Shown piece by piece: positions 48,888 to 55,725 of a DNA stretch of 64,000 nt. This stretch comes from Sphingobacteriaceae bacterium (GTDB taxonomy: Bacteria > Bacteroidota > Bacteroidia > B-17B0 > Aurantibacillaceae): positions 1 through 64,000 of the forward strand of contig CANKBS010000015.1 of the NCBI GenBank assembly GCA_947480015.1, read 5' to 3'. The translations under genes and the position numbers were made by a program. The stretch's first letter is position 1. Every line of letters begins with the position of its first letter. The notes under the pieces were generated by a model. The model did not search any database and was not told where the DNA came from. It worked only from the letters and a program-made list of their open reading frames with translations.

Positions 48888-49686
48888 ATGCAATTAAATC
48901 GAAAACAATTTTTAAAATTATCTAGCTTCTCCGCGTTCGCTTGGCTTTTAAACGCTTCTGGCATAAGAAATAACAAAGAAGAACACACCGATAGGTTAAA
49001 AAATAACACGATGCATGTTGATACATTCAACAGCTCGCCTGTAATTTTTTTGAGCGAAAAAGATTCGGCATACATGGGCTGGAATATTTATTTTAACAAA
49101 CGAATCCAAAAACATCCTAAACTAATTGCGCTGTGGAAAAACACCGAAGGTGTGGCAGAAGCCATAAAATATGCCAAGAAACATGATATGGCTGTTGCTG
49201 TTAAAAGTGCATTACGGCCTTCAACATCCCATTTATTTTAAAAATGCATCCGCCGGTTTATACCGTAATTATAAAGATATTGAAGCCTGTGCTCTTATAG
49301 TACTTGATAAGGTGATTAAAACACCGGGATTAATCTATCAGATAAATACACTGGGTGGAAAAATAAATTCACCCCAATTCCAACAAGCTTCAGCCTATGC
49401 CCACCGTCACCTACCGTTTTTATCGGAGTTACAAGCCTATTGGGACGAACCAAAAGAAGAAAAAAACAGAGTGGAAGCATTTGAAGAAATTCAAAAACAC
49501 TTTTTCGAAAATGATGTGAAAGCACACTACACTAATTACCCCGATTTAAATTTCAGAAACTGGCGTGAAGCCTATTATGGCAATAACTACGAGCGATTGC
49601 TAGCAGTTAAAAAAAGTATGATCCTGAAAACAGAATTAAACACGAGCAAAGTATTGACGTTTAAATCGGGAATTTGTTTGACATGA
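48888..49686 (+). pseudogene. FAD-linked oxidase (berberine-bridge type) with internal deletion and frameshift
   Basis: Frame one from ATG 48888 carries a Tat-like/hydrophobic N-terminus (RKQFLKLSSFSAFAWLL) and the start of an FAD-binding domain: PKLIALWKNTEGVAEAIKYAKKHDMAVAVKS. Normally this leads into GGHS, but here it stops at ALRPSTSHLF. The second frame from about 49230 continues as YFKNASAGLYRNYKDIEACAL and the BBE-like C-terminal part with LNFRNWREAYYGNNYERLLAVKKS. The middle of the protein, with most of the FAD-binding and substrate-binding part, is missing. It is read as a decayed oxidase gene. An assembly error is less likely because the deletion is large. Confidence 0.7.
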
Positions 49687-49720: not shown

Positions 49721-50269
49721 ATGCAGGAACAAAGTTATAATTTTGAAGAACTGTACAACAGCCATGTTAGTCTGGTATATAATCTTGCTTTAAATTATCT
49801 GCAAAATAAAGAAGAAGCCGAAGAAATTACTCAGGATGTTTTTATGCAGGTTTATCAATCCATTTCTGGTTTCAAACAGCAATCGAGTTTAAAAACATGG
49901 ATCTACCGCATAACTTTGAATAAATGCCACGACCATGTAAAAGCCAAACAAACTAAAAAACGCCGGGCCTTTATAAGTAGTTTGTTTCATGAAGATGGTG
50001 GTATAAAACACGATCCGGGTCATTTTGACCATCCGGGCGTTTTACTCGAAAATAAAGAAAGGTCTGAACTCTTATTTTCTGCCATTAATAAATTGCCTGA
50101 GAATCAAAAAACGGTATTTATTTTATCGCAAATTGAACAGCTTTCTCAAAAGGAAATGGCCGATAGTATGGAAATGTCGCAAAAAGCCATAGAATCACTC
50201 CTCCAAAGGGCAAAAGGAAATTTAAGAAATCAATTAGGCCAACTTTATAAGAACGAAGGATTTAAGTAA
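49721..50269 (+). CDS. ECF sigma factor heading a metal-related cluster
   Basis: The protein has 182 residues. Region 2 has LYNSHVSLVYNLALNYLQNKEEAEEITQDVFMQVYQ and TWIYRITLNKCHDHVKAK; region 4 has INKLPENQKTVFILSQIEQLSQKEMADSMEMSQKAIESLLQRAK. A His-containing loop (LFHEDGGIKHDPGHFDH) lies between them. It is followed 24 bases later by a one-TM small protein and 3 bases beyond that by a CpxP-like protein. The trio parallels sigma/anti-sigma/sensor sets such as CnrYXH. It likely controls its own cluster. Upstream, TTTG at 49677 and TAATTTAG at 49697 form a weak promoter candidate. Confidence 0.92.
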   Translation: MQEQSYNFEELYNSHVSLVYNLALNYLQNKEEAEEITQDVFMQVYQSISGFKQQSSLKTWIYRITLNKCHDHVKAKQTKKRRAFISSLFHEDGGIKHDPGHFDHPGVLLENKERSELLFSAINKLPENQKTVFILSQIEQLSQKEMADSMEMSQKAIESLLQRAKGNLRNQLGQLYKNEGFK

Positions 50270-50293
50270 AATAATCGTCTAAAATACGAAAGC

Positions 50294-50593
50294 ATGAAAA
50301 AGGAAGAATGGATTGAATACATGAGCGGTGCTGTCTCCGAAATTGGAAGAGCAGAACCTAATCCTTATTTATTTACACGAATCACCGAGCTGTTAAATCA
50401 AAAAAAAGTAACTGGGCAATCGGCAGTGAAAAAACCTTTTCTTCTACGCTGGGCGTTGGCTGGCTGCGTAGCACTAATCCTAAACATTTTTGTGATTTCC
50501 TTCATGGCAAACCACAAAAAACAGGAAATACAAAAATTTAATTTAGAAGCTCTTTCTGCGGAAATGGGTTTAAATGAGACCTATAATTATTAA
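50294..50593 (+). CDS. small one-TM protein in anti-sigma position
   Basis: The protein has 99 residues. A polar N-terminal half (MKKEEWIEYMSGAVSEIGRAEPNPYLFTRITELLNQ) could bind the sigma factor. One membrane helix (LLRWALAGCVALILNIFVISFMA) precedes a short extracytoplasmic tail. Gene order after an ECF sigma factor and this topology fit an anti-sigma factor (CnrY-like), though no family signature is visible. It starts 25 bases after the sigma stop and is followed after 3 bases by the CpxP-like gene. Function inferred from position and topology. Confidence 0.7.
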   Translation: MKKEEWIEYMSGAVSEIGRAEPNPYLFTRITELLNQKKVTGQSAVKKPFLLRWALAGCVALILNIFVISFMANHKKQEIQKFNLEALSAEMGLNETYNY

Positions 50594-50596
50594 ACC

Positions 50597-51112
50597 ATGG
50601 AAAAAAAGTCATTCATTATATGGAAATGGTTTGCACTACTCATGGTTTTGCTAAACGTGACATTAATCATTTTTTTAGTTCAACCATTTTCCAAAAATGG
50701 TCCTGAGTTGGATAAACCTGAACGTGGGGGTCCGGCCAAGTATATTTTAGAAACTTTAAAATTTAATAAGGGCCAAGCGGCGGCCTTTCAAAAACTAAAA
50801 TTGGCACACCGCGACAGTGTGCAACTGTTAAATGAAAGAGGTAAAGAACTACGCGAGATTTTATTTGAAGGATTGGAAAATGATCAGCAGGTTAATAATC
50901 CTGAGCAAATCATAATTAAAATAGGCGAAAATCAACAACATATTGAACGTTTAACCTACCGACATTTTGAGGAAGTAAAAAAACTATGTAGTCCCGAACA
51001 AAAAGTAATCTTCAATTCAATTATTCAGGAAGTACTAAAACGCATGGGCCCTCGCCGTCCAATGGCTAAAGGAGAACATCCCGATGGACCACCTCATCAC
51101 ACTTCGGAGTAA
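50597..51112 (+). CDS. periplasmic CpxP/CnrX-like sensor-type protein
   Basis: The protein has 171 residues. An N-terminal TM (SFIIWKWFALLMVLLNVTLIIFLV) is uncleaved or an anchor. The remainder is helical with KFNKGQAAAFQKLKLAHRDSV, ELREILFEGLEND and CSPEQKVIFNSII, plus a His/Pro/Gly-rich C-terminus (GEHPDGPPHHTSE). The long helical hairpin resembles CpxP/Spy/ZraP/CnrX, which bind metals or unfolded proteins. The C-terminal His cluster could bind metal. It sits right after the presumed anti-sigma gene, as CnrX does relative to CnrY. Confidence 0.75.
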   Translation: MEKKSFIIWKWFALLMVLLNVTLIIFLVQPFSKNGPELDKPERGGPAKYILETLKFNKGQAAAFQKLKLAHRDSVQLLNERGKELREILFEGLENDQQVNNPEQIIIKIGENQQHIERLTYRHFEEVKKLCSPEQKVIFNSIIQEVLKRMGPRRPMAKGEHPDGPPHHTSE

Positions 51113-51113
51113 C

Positions 51114-51872
51114 ATGAGATATTTGTTTCGCAAAAGGTTAGTATTGTATGTTGCATTTAGTGTTGCTGTTTATGGCATGAAGGCACAAAAAAATGAAGGA
51201 TCATTGATCATAAAAATTCATCCGGTGTTTAATGGCAAAGCGCTTAAACTCACTACCGAACCTTATGTCAACGCTCATCAGGACAGTTTATTTATTGACG
51301 TTTTTAAGTGTTATTTAAGTGCCTTAAAGCTTAGCCCTGGAAATGGAGTAGAATTTAAAGAGACAAAATCTTATCACTTAATTAATGCCGATGATTCCAT
51401 TTCTCTGGTTTTTGTAATTAAAAATATTCCGGAAGGAAATTTTAAAACCTTAAGTTTTAATATAGGTGTGGATAGTATAAGTTCGGTTTCAGGAGCGCTA
51501 GATGGTGACCTGGATCCTTCTAAAGGCATGTACTGGGCCTGGAATACCGGTTATATTGACGCTAAATTAATGGGGCGTTCGAAGCAGTGTAAAACACGCC
51601 AAAACAGTTTTGAATATCATATTGGCGGATATTCGGGCCCTAATAAAACACTACAAAAAGTAAGGCTTGATTTAAATATAATAAACATTGAACCGAACAA
51701 AACAACTCACTTAGAATTGAAAGCCGAACTTGCGGAATGGTTTAACAACCCCTATTTACTTGACCTTTCAGTAACGAATGCCGTTTTAATTCCCGGAAAA
51801 GAGGCCTTACGAATGGCAGAGAATTATGCCGATATGTTTCAGGTTTTAAAAATCACGTCTCCCAAAAAATGA
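51114..51872 (+). CDS. MbnP family copper-binding protein
   Basis: From ATG 51114 (252 residues) the start lies one base after the preceding stop; an ATG 30 bases upstream would overlap it. The signal peptide is RKRLVLYVAFSVAVYGMKAQ. The MbnP motifs are IKIHPVFNGKALKL, SVSGALDGDLDPSKGMYWAW (Trp141, Trp143), NTGYIDAKLMG and FEYHIGGY. In characterised MbnP a tryptophan is oxidised to kynurenine by its partner MbnH, making a copper site. The MbnH-like gene follows with a 4-base overlap, so the pair is probably functional together. Confidence 0.88.
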   Translation: MRYLFRKRLVLYVAFSVAVYGMKAQKNEGSLIIKIHPVFNGKALKLTTEPYVNAHQDSLFIDVFKCYLSALKLSPGNGVEFKETKSYHLINADDSISLVFVIKNIPEGNFKTLSFNIGVDSISSVSGALDGDLDPSKGMYWAWNTGYIDAKLMGRSKQCKTRQNSFEYHIGGYSGPNKTLQKVRLDLNIINIEPNKTTHLELKAELAEWFNNPYLLDLSVTNAVLIPGKEALRMAENYADMFQVLKITSPKK

Positions 51873-52906
51873 AACACCGTATTTGGATATTCCTGATTGG
51901 TATTTTTTGTTTGTTCACATGGCTGGCTTTTCGTTGCATAAAAGAAGAGCCTGTAAAATTTTTAATCCCAAAAGGCTGGCCAAAACCACACTATGATTTT
52001 TCTAAAAACAAACTTACAGCTGCCGGATTTAGTTTAGGAAGAAAATTATTTTATGACCCAGTACTTTCGAATGACAGTAGTATCTCCTGCGCTTCGTGTC
52101 ATTTGCAAGCGACAGGTTTTGCGCATGTTGATCATGATTTGAGTCATGGTATTGAAGGGAAAATAGGAACCCGTAATGCACCGGGCATCGTAAACCCAGC
52201 CTGGAATAAATTCTTTATGTGGGATGGTGGCGTTAATCACCTTGAAGTGCAAGCACTCGCTCCTATCACCAATCCTATCGAAATGAATGAATCGCTTAAC
52301 CACATTGTTATAAAATTAAGTACTCAACTAAGTTACCGTAAAGCTTTTAAACGTGCCTTTGGTGATTCCATCATTAGCGGCCAACGCGTGTTATTAGGTA
52401 TTAGTCAGTTTTTGGTTATGCTCAATTCATCCAATTCAAAATACGATAAATACATACGTCATGAAAAAGATGGTAAATTTAGTGTGCAGGAATTAAATGG
52501 TTTAAAGATTTTTCGAAAACATTGCGGCAGTTGCCATACAGAACCACTATTCACCAATAATGACTTTGCTAATAACGGTTTAAAAGTTGACACAAGTTTA
52601 AAGGATTATGGGCGATACAGCATTACTCATAATGCTAATGACTCACTTAAATTTAAAGTACCGAGCCTCAGAAATATTGAATTTACCTATCCCTACATGC
52701 ATGACGGACGATTTAAAAAATTGTCGGAAGTCCTAAATCATTACAATTCGGGAATTAAATCAAGTAAGACCTTAGCAAATGAACTTCAAAAACCCATGCA
52801 ATTAACTGCTGAACAAAAAACCGATCTGCTGGTTTTTTTATTGACACTGAGCGATAAAAGTTTTTTGTTTGACCAGCGTTTTTCTTACCCTCGAGAAAAA
52901 TCCTGA
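51869..52906 (+). CDS. MbnH-like di-haem cytochrome c peroxidase
   Basis: The protein has 345 residues. One hydrophobic segment (WIFLIGIFCLFTWLAF) anchors or exports it. Two CxxCH motifs, CASCH (74-78) and CGSCH (219-223), bind c-type haem, as in MauG/CcpA peroxidases. Other family motifs are GRKLFYDPVLS, LSHGIEGKIGTRNAPGIVNPAWN, FMWDG and PSLRNIEFTYPYMHDGRF. By analogy with MbnH it may oxidise a tryptophan of the MbnP encoded just before it. The alternative is a plain cytochrome c peroxidase that removes H2O2. Confidence 0.88.
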   Translation: MKHRIWIFLIGIFCLFTWLAFRCIKEEPVKFLIPKGWPKPHYDFSKNKLTAAGFSLGRKLFYDPVLSNDSSISCASCHLQATGFAHVDHDLSHGIEGKIGTRNAPGIVNPAWNKFFMWDGGVNHLEVQALAPITNPIEMNESLNHIVIKLSTQLSYRKAFKRAFGDSIISGQRVLLGISQFLVMLNSSNSKYDKYIRHEKDGKFSVQELNGLKIFRKHCGSCHTEPLFTNNDFANNGLKVDTSLKDYGRYSITHNANDSLKFKVPSLRNIEFTYPYMHDGRFKKLSEVLNHYNSGIKSSKTLANELQKPMQLTAEQKTDLLVFLLTLSDKSFLFDQRFSYPREKS

Positions 52907-52953
52907 ATGTCGAAGGAATAACTCAGTTATACCGTCTAATTAAAAAAACCACT

Positions 52954-54645
52954 ATGAAAAAAACCGGAATTGTTTTCCTTTTGTTTATTACCAGTCTTTT
53001 ACAGGGCCAAACCTATAATAATCTTTGGATTCCTGATACCATTTCAGGCACCCAGTTTAATTTAAATTTGAAAGACACATTTGCGCAATTAAGACCGGGT
53101 AACCAAACGATAACAGCGGGTATTAATAACAAAATATGGGGACCAACACTGTTCTTTAATAAGGGAGATACCGTTCATATGAATGTGCACAATTATTTAA
53201 ACGATTCTACCACCATACACTGGCATGGCTTTCATTTACCGGCAGTAATGGATGGTGGTCCGCATCAAATAATTCCACCCGGTACCATTTGGAAACCCTA
53301 TTGGAAGGTCAGCAACAATGCATCCACTTATTGGTACCACCCACATTTGCATACCATGACGCAGGAACATTTAACCAAAGGGTTAGGAGGATTTATTATT
53401 GTTCGTGATCCGCAAGAAAGAGCACTGGCCATTCCCCGCAGATATGGAATTGATGATATTCCATTAGTGCTCACCTCCCGTCGTTACGATGCTTCAAATG
53501 CATTTGCATACACCAACATTGCCTATGGCGATTACATGCTCAGCAACGGAACACCAAGTGCACAGATAAGTTTGCCGAAACAAATGGTTCGTTTGAGGAT
53601 TTTAAATGCTGAAATTGAAAGGGGTTATGATATTGGATTTAGTGATAACCGCACATTTTATATTATAGGAAATGATGGAGGCTTATTAAATGCACCTGTT
53701 CCTGTGACCCGAGTAAAATTGCTTGTAGGTGAGCGGATTGAAATTCTGGTTAATTTTAGTAATGATGTACTCGGTTCGAGTTTAGACTTAAAATCGTATA
53801 ATGCCGGCCAAACCTTTGGTTTTCCAGGTGGAGAACCATCCAGTAGTGGTCCTTTAGGAAGTTTACTTAATAATACCAATTTTAATGTGCTTCATATTAA
53901 TATTGGTGCACAAACCGCCAATCCTATAACGGTGTTACCAACCAATCTCGTTAACAATACCTATTGGACAGCTGCCGATGCCACTGTAAATAAATCGGTA
54001 AATGTTACCGGCGGAACACCGGGTAACGACTTCACCCTGGATAATGCTTCATTTGCCTTAAGCGTCATTAACAAAACCGTTACCTTAAATTCCATCGAAA
54101 AATGGACCATTACAAACAATAATGTGTTTGGACATGCCTTTCATATACACGACGTGGAATTTAAAATTGTGGCGCGAAGTAGCGGCACTGTTGGCGTGCA
54201 CGAATCGGGCTGGAAAGATGTGGTGTATTTGCCGAAAAATGAAAGCGTAACTTTTGTAGCCAAATTTGATGATTATGCCGACACCATACATCCGTTTATG
54301 TATCACTGTCATTTTTCTAATCATGAGGATGGCGGTATGATGGGACAATTTATAGTAAAATCATCAGTGCCAACTGGTTTATCTGCTAATGAATTAACTG
54401 AATCTGATTTCACTATTTATCCAAACCCTGCAAACAACAAACTATTCATTAATCTATCCGATCTTGGCGCTGAAGTGTACTATTTGCGTATTACCAATGT
54501 GGTTGGTAAAACCCTGTATATGTTGCCAAAACCGCAATTGACTGAAGGAATAGATATTAGTCATTTTTCTCCGGGCGTGTATATGGTGCAATTAACCCAC
54601 AATAAAACAAAAAAAACCACCACTAAAAAATTTGTAAAAGAATAA
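52954..54645 (+). CDS. multicopper oxidase with T9SS type A sorting domain
   Basis: The protein has 563 residues. The signal peptide is KKTGIVFLLFITSLLQGQ. Three cupredoxin domains follow, with the copper motifs HWHGFHLP (His89, His91), WYHPHLH (His129, His131), HAFHIHD (His394, His397, His399) and HCHFSNHEDGGMM (His451, Cys452, His453, His457, Met462). It is a laccase/CueO/bilirubin-oxidase-type enzyme. The C-terminal about 80 residues (IYPNPANNKLFINLS, GVYMVQLTHNKTKKTTTKKFVK) are a T9SS sorting domain, so this oxidase is predicted at the cell surface. It overlaps the next gene by one base. Possible roles are Cu(I) oxidation or ferroxidase activity. Confidence 0.93.
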   Translation: MKKTGIVFLLFITSLLQGQTYNNLWIPDTISGTQFNLNLKDTFAQLRPGNQTITAGINNKIWGPTLFFNKGDTVHMNVHNYLNDSTTIHWHGFHLPAVMDGGPHQIIPPGTIWKPYWKVSNNASTYWYHPHLHTMTQEHLTKGLGGFIIVRDPQERALAIPRRYGIDDIPLVLTSRRYDASNAFAYTNIAYGDYMLSNGTPSAQISLPKQMVRLRILNAEIERGYDIGFSDNRTFYIIGNDGGLLNAPVPVTRVKLLVGERIEILVNFSNDVLGSSLDLKSYNAGQTFGFPGGEPSSSGPLGSLLNNTNFNVLHINIGAQTANPITVLPTNLVNNTYWTAADATVNKSVNVTGGTPGNDFTLDNASFALSVINKTVTLNSIEKWTITNNNVFGHAFHIHDVEFKIVARSSGTVGVHESGWKDVVYLPKNESVTFVAKFDDYADTIHPFMYHCHFSNHEDGGMMGQFIVKSSVPTGLSANELTESDFTIYPNPANNKLFINLSDLGAEVYYLRITNVVGKTLYMLPKPQLTEGIDISHFSPGVYMVQLTHNKTKKTTTKKFVKE

Positions 54646-55262
54646 TGCGAACTTCAATTCAACTAATTGGTGTAGCCTTTATTTGCCTTTTGTTATTTTC
54701 GGTTTTTTCTTTTAAAGATAACAGCGGCCTAACCGAGGTGTTTAATTTAAAGCTAAGAAACGCCAATGGTAAACCAACGGCATTAAGTGATTACAAGCTG
54801 ACAAAGGGTTTAATGCTTGTATTCACATGCAACCACTGCCCTTTTGCCAAACTCTATCCGGCTCGATTTAACGAACTTAATAAAAAGTATAGTCCAAAAG
54901 GAGTGCCATTAATTGCCATAAGTTCTACCGACACCATAACTTATGAAGAAGATGGTTTTGAGCAAATGAAAAAAGTTGCCGGCAAAAAGCATTTTAATTT
55001 TGATTATTTGTTTGACGACATGCAAATTCTGGCTAAAAAATTTGGTGCCGATAAAACACCTCATGCTTTTCTGTTATGGAAGAATGGGAATGATTGGCAA
55101 ATAAGGTATAGCGGTGCAATTGATGATAACGGTGCCGAACCTGATAAAGTAACGGAGCCATACCTGGCTATGGCGGTAGATTCGATGTTAATGGGAAAAG
55201 AACCTCCCTATGCCAGCACAAAATCTATTGGCTGCCAAATTCATTTCAGACCAAAAAAATAA
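54645..55262 (+). CDS. thioredoxin/peroxiredoxin-like family protein, exported or membrane-anchored
   Basis: The protein has 205 residues. An N-terminal hydrophobic segment (IQLIGVAFICLLLFSVFSF) is followed by a thioredoxin fold with TCNHCPFAKLY (Cys62, Cys65), VPLIAISSTD, HFNFDYLFDDMQILAKKFGADKTPHAF and FGADKTPHAFLLW with the cis-Pro region. CxxC with a Pro after it fits AhpC/TSA-like or TlpA-like reductases. It closes the cluster, directly overlapping the multicopper oxidase. It may keep cysteines of the cluster proteins, or copper, reduced; that is inference. Confidence 0.85.
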   Translation: MRTSIQLIGVAFICLLLFSVFSFKDNSGLTEVFNLKLRNANGKPTALSDYKLTKGLMLVFTCNHCPFAKLYPARFNELNKKYSPKGVPLIAISSTDTITYEEDGFEQMKKVAGKKHFNFDYLFDDMQILAKKFGADKTPHAFLLWKNGNDWQIRYSGAIDDNGAEPDKVTEPYLAMAVDSMLMGKEPPYASTKSIGCQIHFRPKK

Positions 55263-55509: not shown

Positions 55510-55725
55510 ATGAAAGTACCCGGCTTATTGTGTGTTTTGTTTTTTGGGCTGTTTTTTACCGCTTGTCAAAAAGAGTACACCTGTTATTGTACCAATCCGG
55601 GAGGTACCTCCAAGGCTTTCAGTGTAAAGGAATCAAAGAATAATGCCGAGAGCGAATGTAAAAAATATTACGATAATAATTTTGGAAGTATCCCCTGGAA
55701 TGAAACAACCTGTGAAATAAAATAA
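55510..55725 (+). CDS. small cysteine-rich lipoprotein
   Basis: The protein has 71 residues. A signal peptide (MKVPGLLCVLFFGLFFTAC) ends in a lipobox Cys19, followed by QKEYTCYCTNPGG and two further cysteines (ESECKKYY, TTCEIK), so two disulfides are possible. Short lipoproteins of this pattern are common in Bacteroidota but have no known role. It stands alone, converging with a thioesterase gene 16 bases downstream. Confidence 0.75.
   Translation: MKVPGLLCVLFFGLFFTACQKEYTCYCTNPGGTSKAFSVKESKNNAESECKKYYDNNFGSIPWNETTCEIK

Follow-up and report, generated by a model that had tools for sequence, protein, structure and literature searches.

A probable CnrYXH-like sigma factor switch and its copper-envelope regulon in Bacteroidia

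The DNA analysed here (the window) is a stretch of 64,000 nucleotides from a Sphingobacteriaceae bacterium of the phylum Bacteroidota (assembly GCA_947480015.1, contig CANKBS010000015.1, positions 1 to 64,000 of the forward strand), the genome of which comprises 3.77 Mb in 66 contigs. A cluster of seven open reading frames (ORFs), all on the + strand, occupies positions 49721-55262 and encodes an extracytoplasmic function (ECF) sigma factor, two small membrane proteins designated Y and X, members of the MbnP and MbnH families, a multicopper oxidase bearing a type IX secretion system (T9SS) sorting domain and a thioredoxin-like protein. An initial annotation had described this as a compact seven-gene cluster. 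Analysis of the ORFs and their domains confirmed the genes and their claimed order, as well as the short gaps and overlaps between them (24, 3, 1, -4, 47 and -1 bases between consecutive ORFs). The features of the cluster are as follows (TM, transmembrane segment).

49721..50269, + strand: ECF sigma factor, 182 aa (Pfam Sigma70_r2, 2e-17; r4_2, 4e-14)
50254..50282, + strand: promoter 1, CGAAGGA-N15-CGTCTAA, 5' of the Y gene (perfect match)
50294..50593, + strand: Y, 99 aa, one TM, presumed anti-sigma factor (CnrY-like position and layout)
50597..51112, + strand: X, 171 aa, CnrX-like sensor with an N-terminal TM and a periplasmic helical hairpin (AlphaFold, fold search)
51114..51872, + strand: MbnP family protein, 252 aa (PF20243, 4e-44)
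51869..52906, + strand: MbnH/MauG-like di-haem protein (CCP_MauG, 2e-51)
52911..52939, + strand: promoter 2, CGAAGGA-N15-CGTCTAA, 5' of the oxidase gene (perfect match)
52954..54645, + strand: CueO-type multicopper oxidase with a T9SS C-terminal sorting domain (Pfam Cu-oxidase_3/_2, Por_Secre_tail)
about 54415-54642, + strand: T9SS tail of the oxidase (Por_Secre_tail)
54645..55262, + strand: thioredoxin/AhpC-TSA-like exported protein, a regular partner of the oxidase (AhpC-TSA, 8e-14)

Y and X gave no match in Pfam when queried singly, and an alternative ATG for the MbnP gene is situated upstream, at 51084. The seven genes had been taken for a single unit. That view was not borne out, since two perfect copies of the promoter lie inside the cluster (50254-50282 and 52911-52939, the -35 block of the former being contained within the 3' end of the sigma factor gene); the cluster is thus more than one transcription unit, and the oxidase and thioredoxin genes are a regulon branch separable from the rest.

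Relatives of X were sought in other genomes. They were present in 24 of 60 near genomes, and a profile search covering 395 genomes of the class identified them in 108. The neighbourhoods of the 83 top-scoring X genes, a sample biased to close relatives, were then read. It is apparent that the usual order is sigma-Y-X, with a Y homolog between the other two in most loci, followed by MbnP-MbnH and a gene for a T9SS-tailed YHYH protein of roughly 450 aa, these last two in either order. In 53 of the 83 sensor loci, from about 22 families, MbnP and/or MbnH were encoded on the sensor's strand no more than 7 kb away, so that the gene order is conserved beyond chance. Seven of these loci, including that of the window, also contain the oxidase and thioredoxin genes, inserted as a pair. 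The window's locus is atypical in lacking a YHYH gene, the single one in this genome being on another contig. A variant operon behind sigma-Y-X encodes a YHYH protein, SCO1/SenC and an outer-membrane-type protein with a CarboxypepD_reg domain, and some clusters contain a second thioredoxin-like gene. The genome carries four MbnP genes, and the three outside the cluster had neither adjoining sigma or X genes nor a promoter site within two mismatches nearby; MbnP as such is therefore not the criterion for membership. Two further arrangements were observed: in locus L054 (8333-9760) the order is Y-X-sigma, as in CnrYXH, with an X that does not have the conserved Cys and no MbnP nearby, and the contigs of L228 and L135 each carry two sigma-X sets close together.

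A count of k-mers in the 80 bp 5' of each gene revealed strong enrichment before the Y and YHYH genes and not before those for X, MbnP and the sigma factor; that seen before MbnH is due to conservation of the coding sequence. The signal takes one of two forms, CGAAGGA-N15-CGTCTAA (type A) or CGCAAGT-N15-CATCTAA (type B), the blocks and spacing of which fit a predicted ECF -35/-10 pair. With at least 11 of the 14 positions required to match, 65 of 81 loci have the promoter 5' of Y, where shuffling predicts about 1; it also lies 5' of YHYH in 46 of 62 (about 0.6 expected) and 5' of the oxidase in three of seven (about 0.05 expected). The spacer is 15 bases long in 111 of the 114 sites before these three genes, and in 108 of the 111 before Y and YHYH. 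Only 8 of 83 sigma factor genes are preceded by the promoter, and k-mer and two-block motif searches of the 200 bp 5' of the sigma factor gene yielded nothing above shuffles. When the Y and YHYH promoters were typed within each of 37 loci, 24 were A/A, 13 were B/B and none was A/B. The columns of the sigma factor that vary most with promoter type (143, 162, 155 and 166) belong to region 4, the part of the protein that recognizes the -35 element.

Perfect type A copies number three in the 3.77-Mb genome, against 0.019 expected (P 1e-6), and these precede the Y gene, the oxidase gene and the YHYH gene on the other contig. Sites with two mismatches were rejected as background in this genome, an equal number being obtained with the reversed pattern, and a looser, merged pattern was discarded as noisy across the genus. 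The distance from the end of the -10 block to the Y start codon has a median of 10 bases (window positions 50254-50294 and homologous sites), and the Y transcript is therefore probably almost leaderless.

Across genomes, the promoter also tends to occur together with the sensor gene. A strict type A site was present in 39 of the 108 X-positive genomes (74 sites), compared with 8 of the 287 X-negative ones (8 sites; p 1.7e-17), and at least two such sites occurred in 22 X-positive genomes and in no X-negative genome among the 395. Twenty remote promoter regions were read. Sites were situated 5' of YHYH genes (L172, L173, L176 and L182), a gene for a YHYH-like lipoprotein (L165), CotH genes (L171 and L174, and L169 with a T9SS gene), the oxidase-thioredoxin pair (L179) and MbnP-MbnH (L182). 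Others (L164, L166, L167, L180 and L181) were at a pair of divergent operons or their counterparts, one for a urea transporter (UT)/M23 peptidase, a tetratricopeptide repeat (TPR) protein and an outer-membrane protein (OMP), the other for glyoxalase-like, decarboxylase and ATP-grasp proteins. The sites in L168, L170 and L183 look like chance occurrences. The window's own genome has the same divergent operons, encoding a UT/M23 fusion, TPR and OMP-like proteins versus glyoxalase-like, Orn-Lys-Arg decarboxylase and ATP-grasp proteins (L163, 2657-12005, equivalent to G000:C8, about 11.7-21.0 kb). In L040 and L100 the UT/M23 operon is directly behind sigma-Y-X, and in other genomes an unrelated decarboxylase and ATP-grasp pair accompanies the same UT/M23 protein.

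The sigma factor gene is adjoined by genes for a one-TM Y and a one-TM periplasmic X, which is the layout of CnrYXH-type systems. Y, the presumed anti-sigma factor, has a hydrophobic segment near residues 54-72 and a common N-terminal motif around [AP]xPPfLftrI. The AlphaFold model of X, built from 22 sequences (predicted local distance difference test score, pLDDT, 86.7), shows a helical hairpin preceded by a helix at the N-terminus. Its best PDB matches are CnrX structures, both by Foldseek (E 6e-3, probability 1.00) and by VIA, in which the top eight rows are all CnrX (Z 10.8-12.0) and unrelated helical rows begin at 10.3, a modest margin given that a VIA Z is not decisive alone for helical bundles. 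Neighbouring genes, the position of the TM and matches of PF13801 (Metal_resist) to 12 of 22 X family members strengthen the assignment of X as CnrX-like. In sequence searches of the PDB, the X-family profile found Spy (6e-5) and the single sequence found no match.

H71, H123 and C131 of X are invariant in 22 sequences, and this His-His-Cys triad is kept in 50 of the 53 MbnP/H-linked loci. Manual alignment on a common stretch ending in Pro-Glu places H123 at H119 of CnrX. X is like CnrX in predicted fold and, probably, in its mode of action, with a different ligand set; as the CnrX ligands are mostly lost, X is best said to work like CnrX rather than to be CnrX. The triad would bind a metal.

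The MbnP model (pLDDT 90.7) matched MbnP of Methylosinus trichosporium (7l6g) with a Foldseek E value of 5e-9 and a VIA Z of 18.1 (214 residues aligned, root-mean-square deviation 2.9), and the next unrelated fold scored 8.2. It was the fold search that gave 7l6g; the MbnP profile had no match among PDB sequences. Counted from the ATG at 51114, the tryptophans singled out in the initial annotation are indeed Trp141 and Trp143. In 54 sequences W141 and H169 are conserved in 100% and W143 in 98%. The CXXCH motifs (C74-H78 and C219-H223) and Y292 of the MbnH-like protein are likewise invariant in 54 sequences, and W118 is present in 94%. This protein matches the di-haem enzyme 6e1c over nearly its whole chain, with Tyr292 aligned to the Tyr of that enzyme; by homology, Tyr292 would be the sixth haem ligand and Trp118 would lie between the haems. 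The pair thus carries the residues expected for tryptophan oxidation, and MbnH may form kynurenine on a Trp of MbnP. Kynurenine for copper binding was reportedly shown for MbnP in a 2021 study of MbnP/MbnH. It has also been proposed for CorA and MopE (PMC3912023). The scores against the NCBIfam models TIGR04052 (MbnP equivalog; 20 bits, cut-off 140) and TIGR04039 (MbnH; 209.9 bits, cut-off 362.9) fall below the cut-offs, and the two proteins are accordingly described as family members and not as equivalogs.

The oxidase has three domains, CueO-type matches down to 1.7e-76 and a full set of copper-ligand His/Cys motifs, invariant in 7 sequences. Its Por_Secre_tail/TIGR04183 domain and hydrophobic N-terminus, together with the presence of the T9SS component GldL in the genome (9e-66), predict export by the T9SS. 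Such export had been thought unusual. In a survey of named genomes with the oxidase as query, a T9SS tail was found in nearly all of the 80 closest relatives, from which it appears that T9SS export is ordinary for this family. A thioredoxin-like gene is near the oxidase gene in 71 of the 80, and a promoter site lies within 300 bp 5' of it in 26 of 78 named relatives. Flavipsychrobacter stenotrophus RB1R16 (L234) carries the oxidase-thioredoxin pair together with a one-off copy of the site.

Taken together, these data point to a probable CnrYXH-like sigma switch that governs a copper-envelope regulon, with its control centre and some of its outputs encoded at this locus. At rest, Y in the membrane would hold the sigma factor, with X bound to its periplasmic side. 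Binding of a metal ion, most likely copper, to the His/His/Cys site of X would relax the complex and free the sigma factor, which would start transcription at CGAAGGA-N15-CGTCTAA promoters. The copy before Y would drive Y-X-MbnP-MbnH; as it is situated between sigma and Y, the sigma factor would raise its own brake and not itself. Further targets would be the oxidase-thioredoxin pair and the YHYH gene on the other contig and, probably, the divergent urea-transporter/M23 and decarboxylase/ATP-grasp operons. MbnP would bind copper after oxidation of a Trp by MbnH, and the exported oxidase might oxidize Cu(I) at the cell surface. The best candidate for the signal is copper, since the recurrent outputs include MbnP, MbnH, the CueO-type oxidase and SCO1. 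Of the copper-responsive envelope module envisaged in the initial annotation, the gene order, the CnrX-like sensor fold, the sigma switch (now with a definable promoter and regulon) and the MbnP/MbnH residues have stood; the single unit and the unusual T9SS export have not.

As to the direction of the response, induction by copper excess is suggested by the logic of CnrX and by the oxidase. A lesser, though real, possibility is that the same switch and regulon serve copper scarcity, with MbnP, YHYH and their partners scavenging and with metal-loaded X keeping the sigma factor bound, or loss of metal acting as the signal. The kynurenine-copper relatives CorA and MopE, which have di-haem partners, are copper-repressed in methanotrophs (PMC3912023). 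The variant operon described above pairs a SCO1 copper chaperone with a CarboxypepD_reg protein that is similar to the N-terminal part of an outer-membrane receptor. Scarcity sits badly, however, with a CueO-type oxidase, normally a copper-detoxification enzyme. It also runs counter to the closest fold, CnrX, in which binding of metal sets the sigma factor free (PMC7689651). We consider it unlikely that the switch, though real, responds to a metal other than copper, to redox or thiol stress in the periplasm, or to damage of the envelope. The Cys kept in X may be redox-active, the CnrX-fold relatives CpxP and Spy are envelope-stress reporters, the regulon includes peptidase M23 and decarboxylases, and some clusters have the second thioredoxin-like gene noted above; against this, copper-family outputs recur, and two invariant His residues beside the Cys are better suited to a metal site than to a redox site. 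That oxidase-thioredoxin, YHYH and MbnP-MbnH each also occur elsewhere without a sigma factor gene might suggest that envelope genes with no relation to each other came together by chance or as a selfish unit, under no shared control. This is scarcely credible, as relocated genes often keep the same promoter, and it is already contradicted by the counts of that promoter before Y and YHYH and by its association with the sensor gene in the 395 genomes.

Several observations weigh against a CnrX-like copper switch, the reading preferred here. Of the five CnrX ligands (H42, H46, E63, H119 and M123) only the H119 position is kept in X, the lost positions being aliphatic or variable; that of Met123, which is required for CnrX signalling (PMC7689651), is Ile, Val or Leu. 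The covariation in region 4 is confounded by phylogeny, and type B sigma factors may simply share ancestry. Neither MbnP/H nor YHYH is nearby in 17 of the 83 sensor loci. The two sites at the divergent operons of the window genome (C8:16015 and C8:16158) have one mismatch each, and no part in copper handling is evident for the UT-M23/decarboxylase branch. It is conceivable, if decidedly doubtful, that this branch, with its decarboxylase, ATP-grasp ligase, UT/M23, TPR and OMP-like proteins, would produce and transport a metabolite that binds copper or protects against it, as a new metallophore-like system under the CnrX-type copper switch.

Two further features flank the cluster. Just 5' of the sigma factor gene, at 48888-49686, is the remnant of a berberine-bridge-type FAD oxidase, with the N-terminal and BBE-domain parts in different frames and the FAD domain mostly gone. 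Directly 3', at 55510-55722, is a gene for a 71-aa Cys-containing probable lipoprotein, without the promoter, relatives of which are near clusters in L052, L034 and L032.

Each protein family is already known; the promoter is newly described here. A literature search that took in few subscription papers gave no description of the sigma-Y-X-MbnPH-YHYH set or of its promoter and regulon, and nothing linking YHYH with copper or a multicopper oxidase in this sense. MbnP occurs in three quarters of the sampled Bacteroidia genomes, and no function was found in the literature for YHYH and CotH-type T9SS proteins; the sigma factor, together with its sensor and a precisely defined promoter, links MbnP, YHYH and CotH genes in a single predicted regulon. 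If correct, this would be a CnrX-type switch with an altered ligand set, the regulon members of which move around the genome yet keep their promoter. The prediction is unusually concrete, and testable as to metal, direction and genes.

Known systems resemble this one in part. CueO, among the best solved relatives of the oxidase, shares its three domains and full copper-ligand motifs; it is exported by Tat to the periplasm, whereas the oxidase here has a T9SS tail, no Met-rich insert and a thioredoxin-like partner gene. MbnP-MbnH of Methylosinus, CorA-CorB and MopE-SACCP have in common with the present pair the MbnP fold, a WxW Trp pair, a di-haem partner with a MauG-type Tyr and overlapping genes. 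The present pair differs in having no methanobactin genes or FecIR-type regulators beside it, in scoring below the NCBI equivalog cut-offs and in its probable control by a CnrX-like sensor. Pairs of MbnP and MbnH genes remote from those for methanobactin were reported in 2013 (PMC3621798). The sigma factor, too, has counterparts. CorE of Myxococcus xanthus senses by a Cys-rich domain of its own, whereas sensing here would be by separate membrane proteins. CorE is likewise a copper-linked ECF sigma factor (PMC3107203). Closest is CnrYXH of Cupriavidus metallidurans, with an ECF sigma factor, a small one-TM anti-sigma factor, a one-TM periplasmic hairpin sensor that is the best fold match to X, and a sigma-dependent promoter 5' of the Y gene. 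Its order Y-X-H places the sigma factor inside the induced unit (PMC9045368), whereas the order sigma-Y-X leaves it outside its own promoter; its sensor has His/His/Glu/His/Met ligands in place of His/His/Cys; and its output is an RND efflux pump, where here it would be a set of copper-linked envelope proteins.

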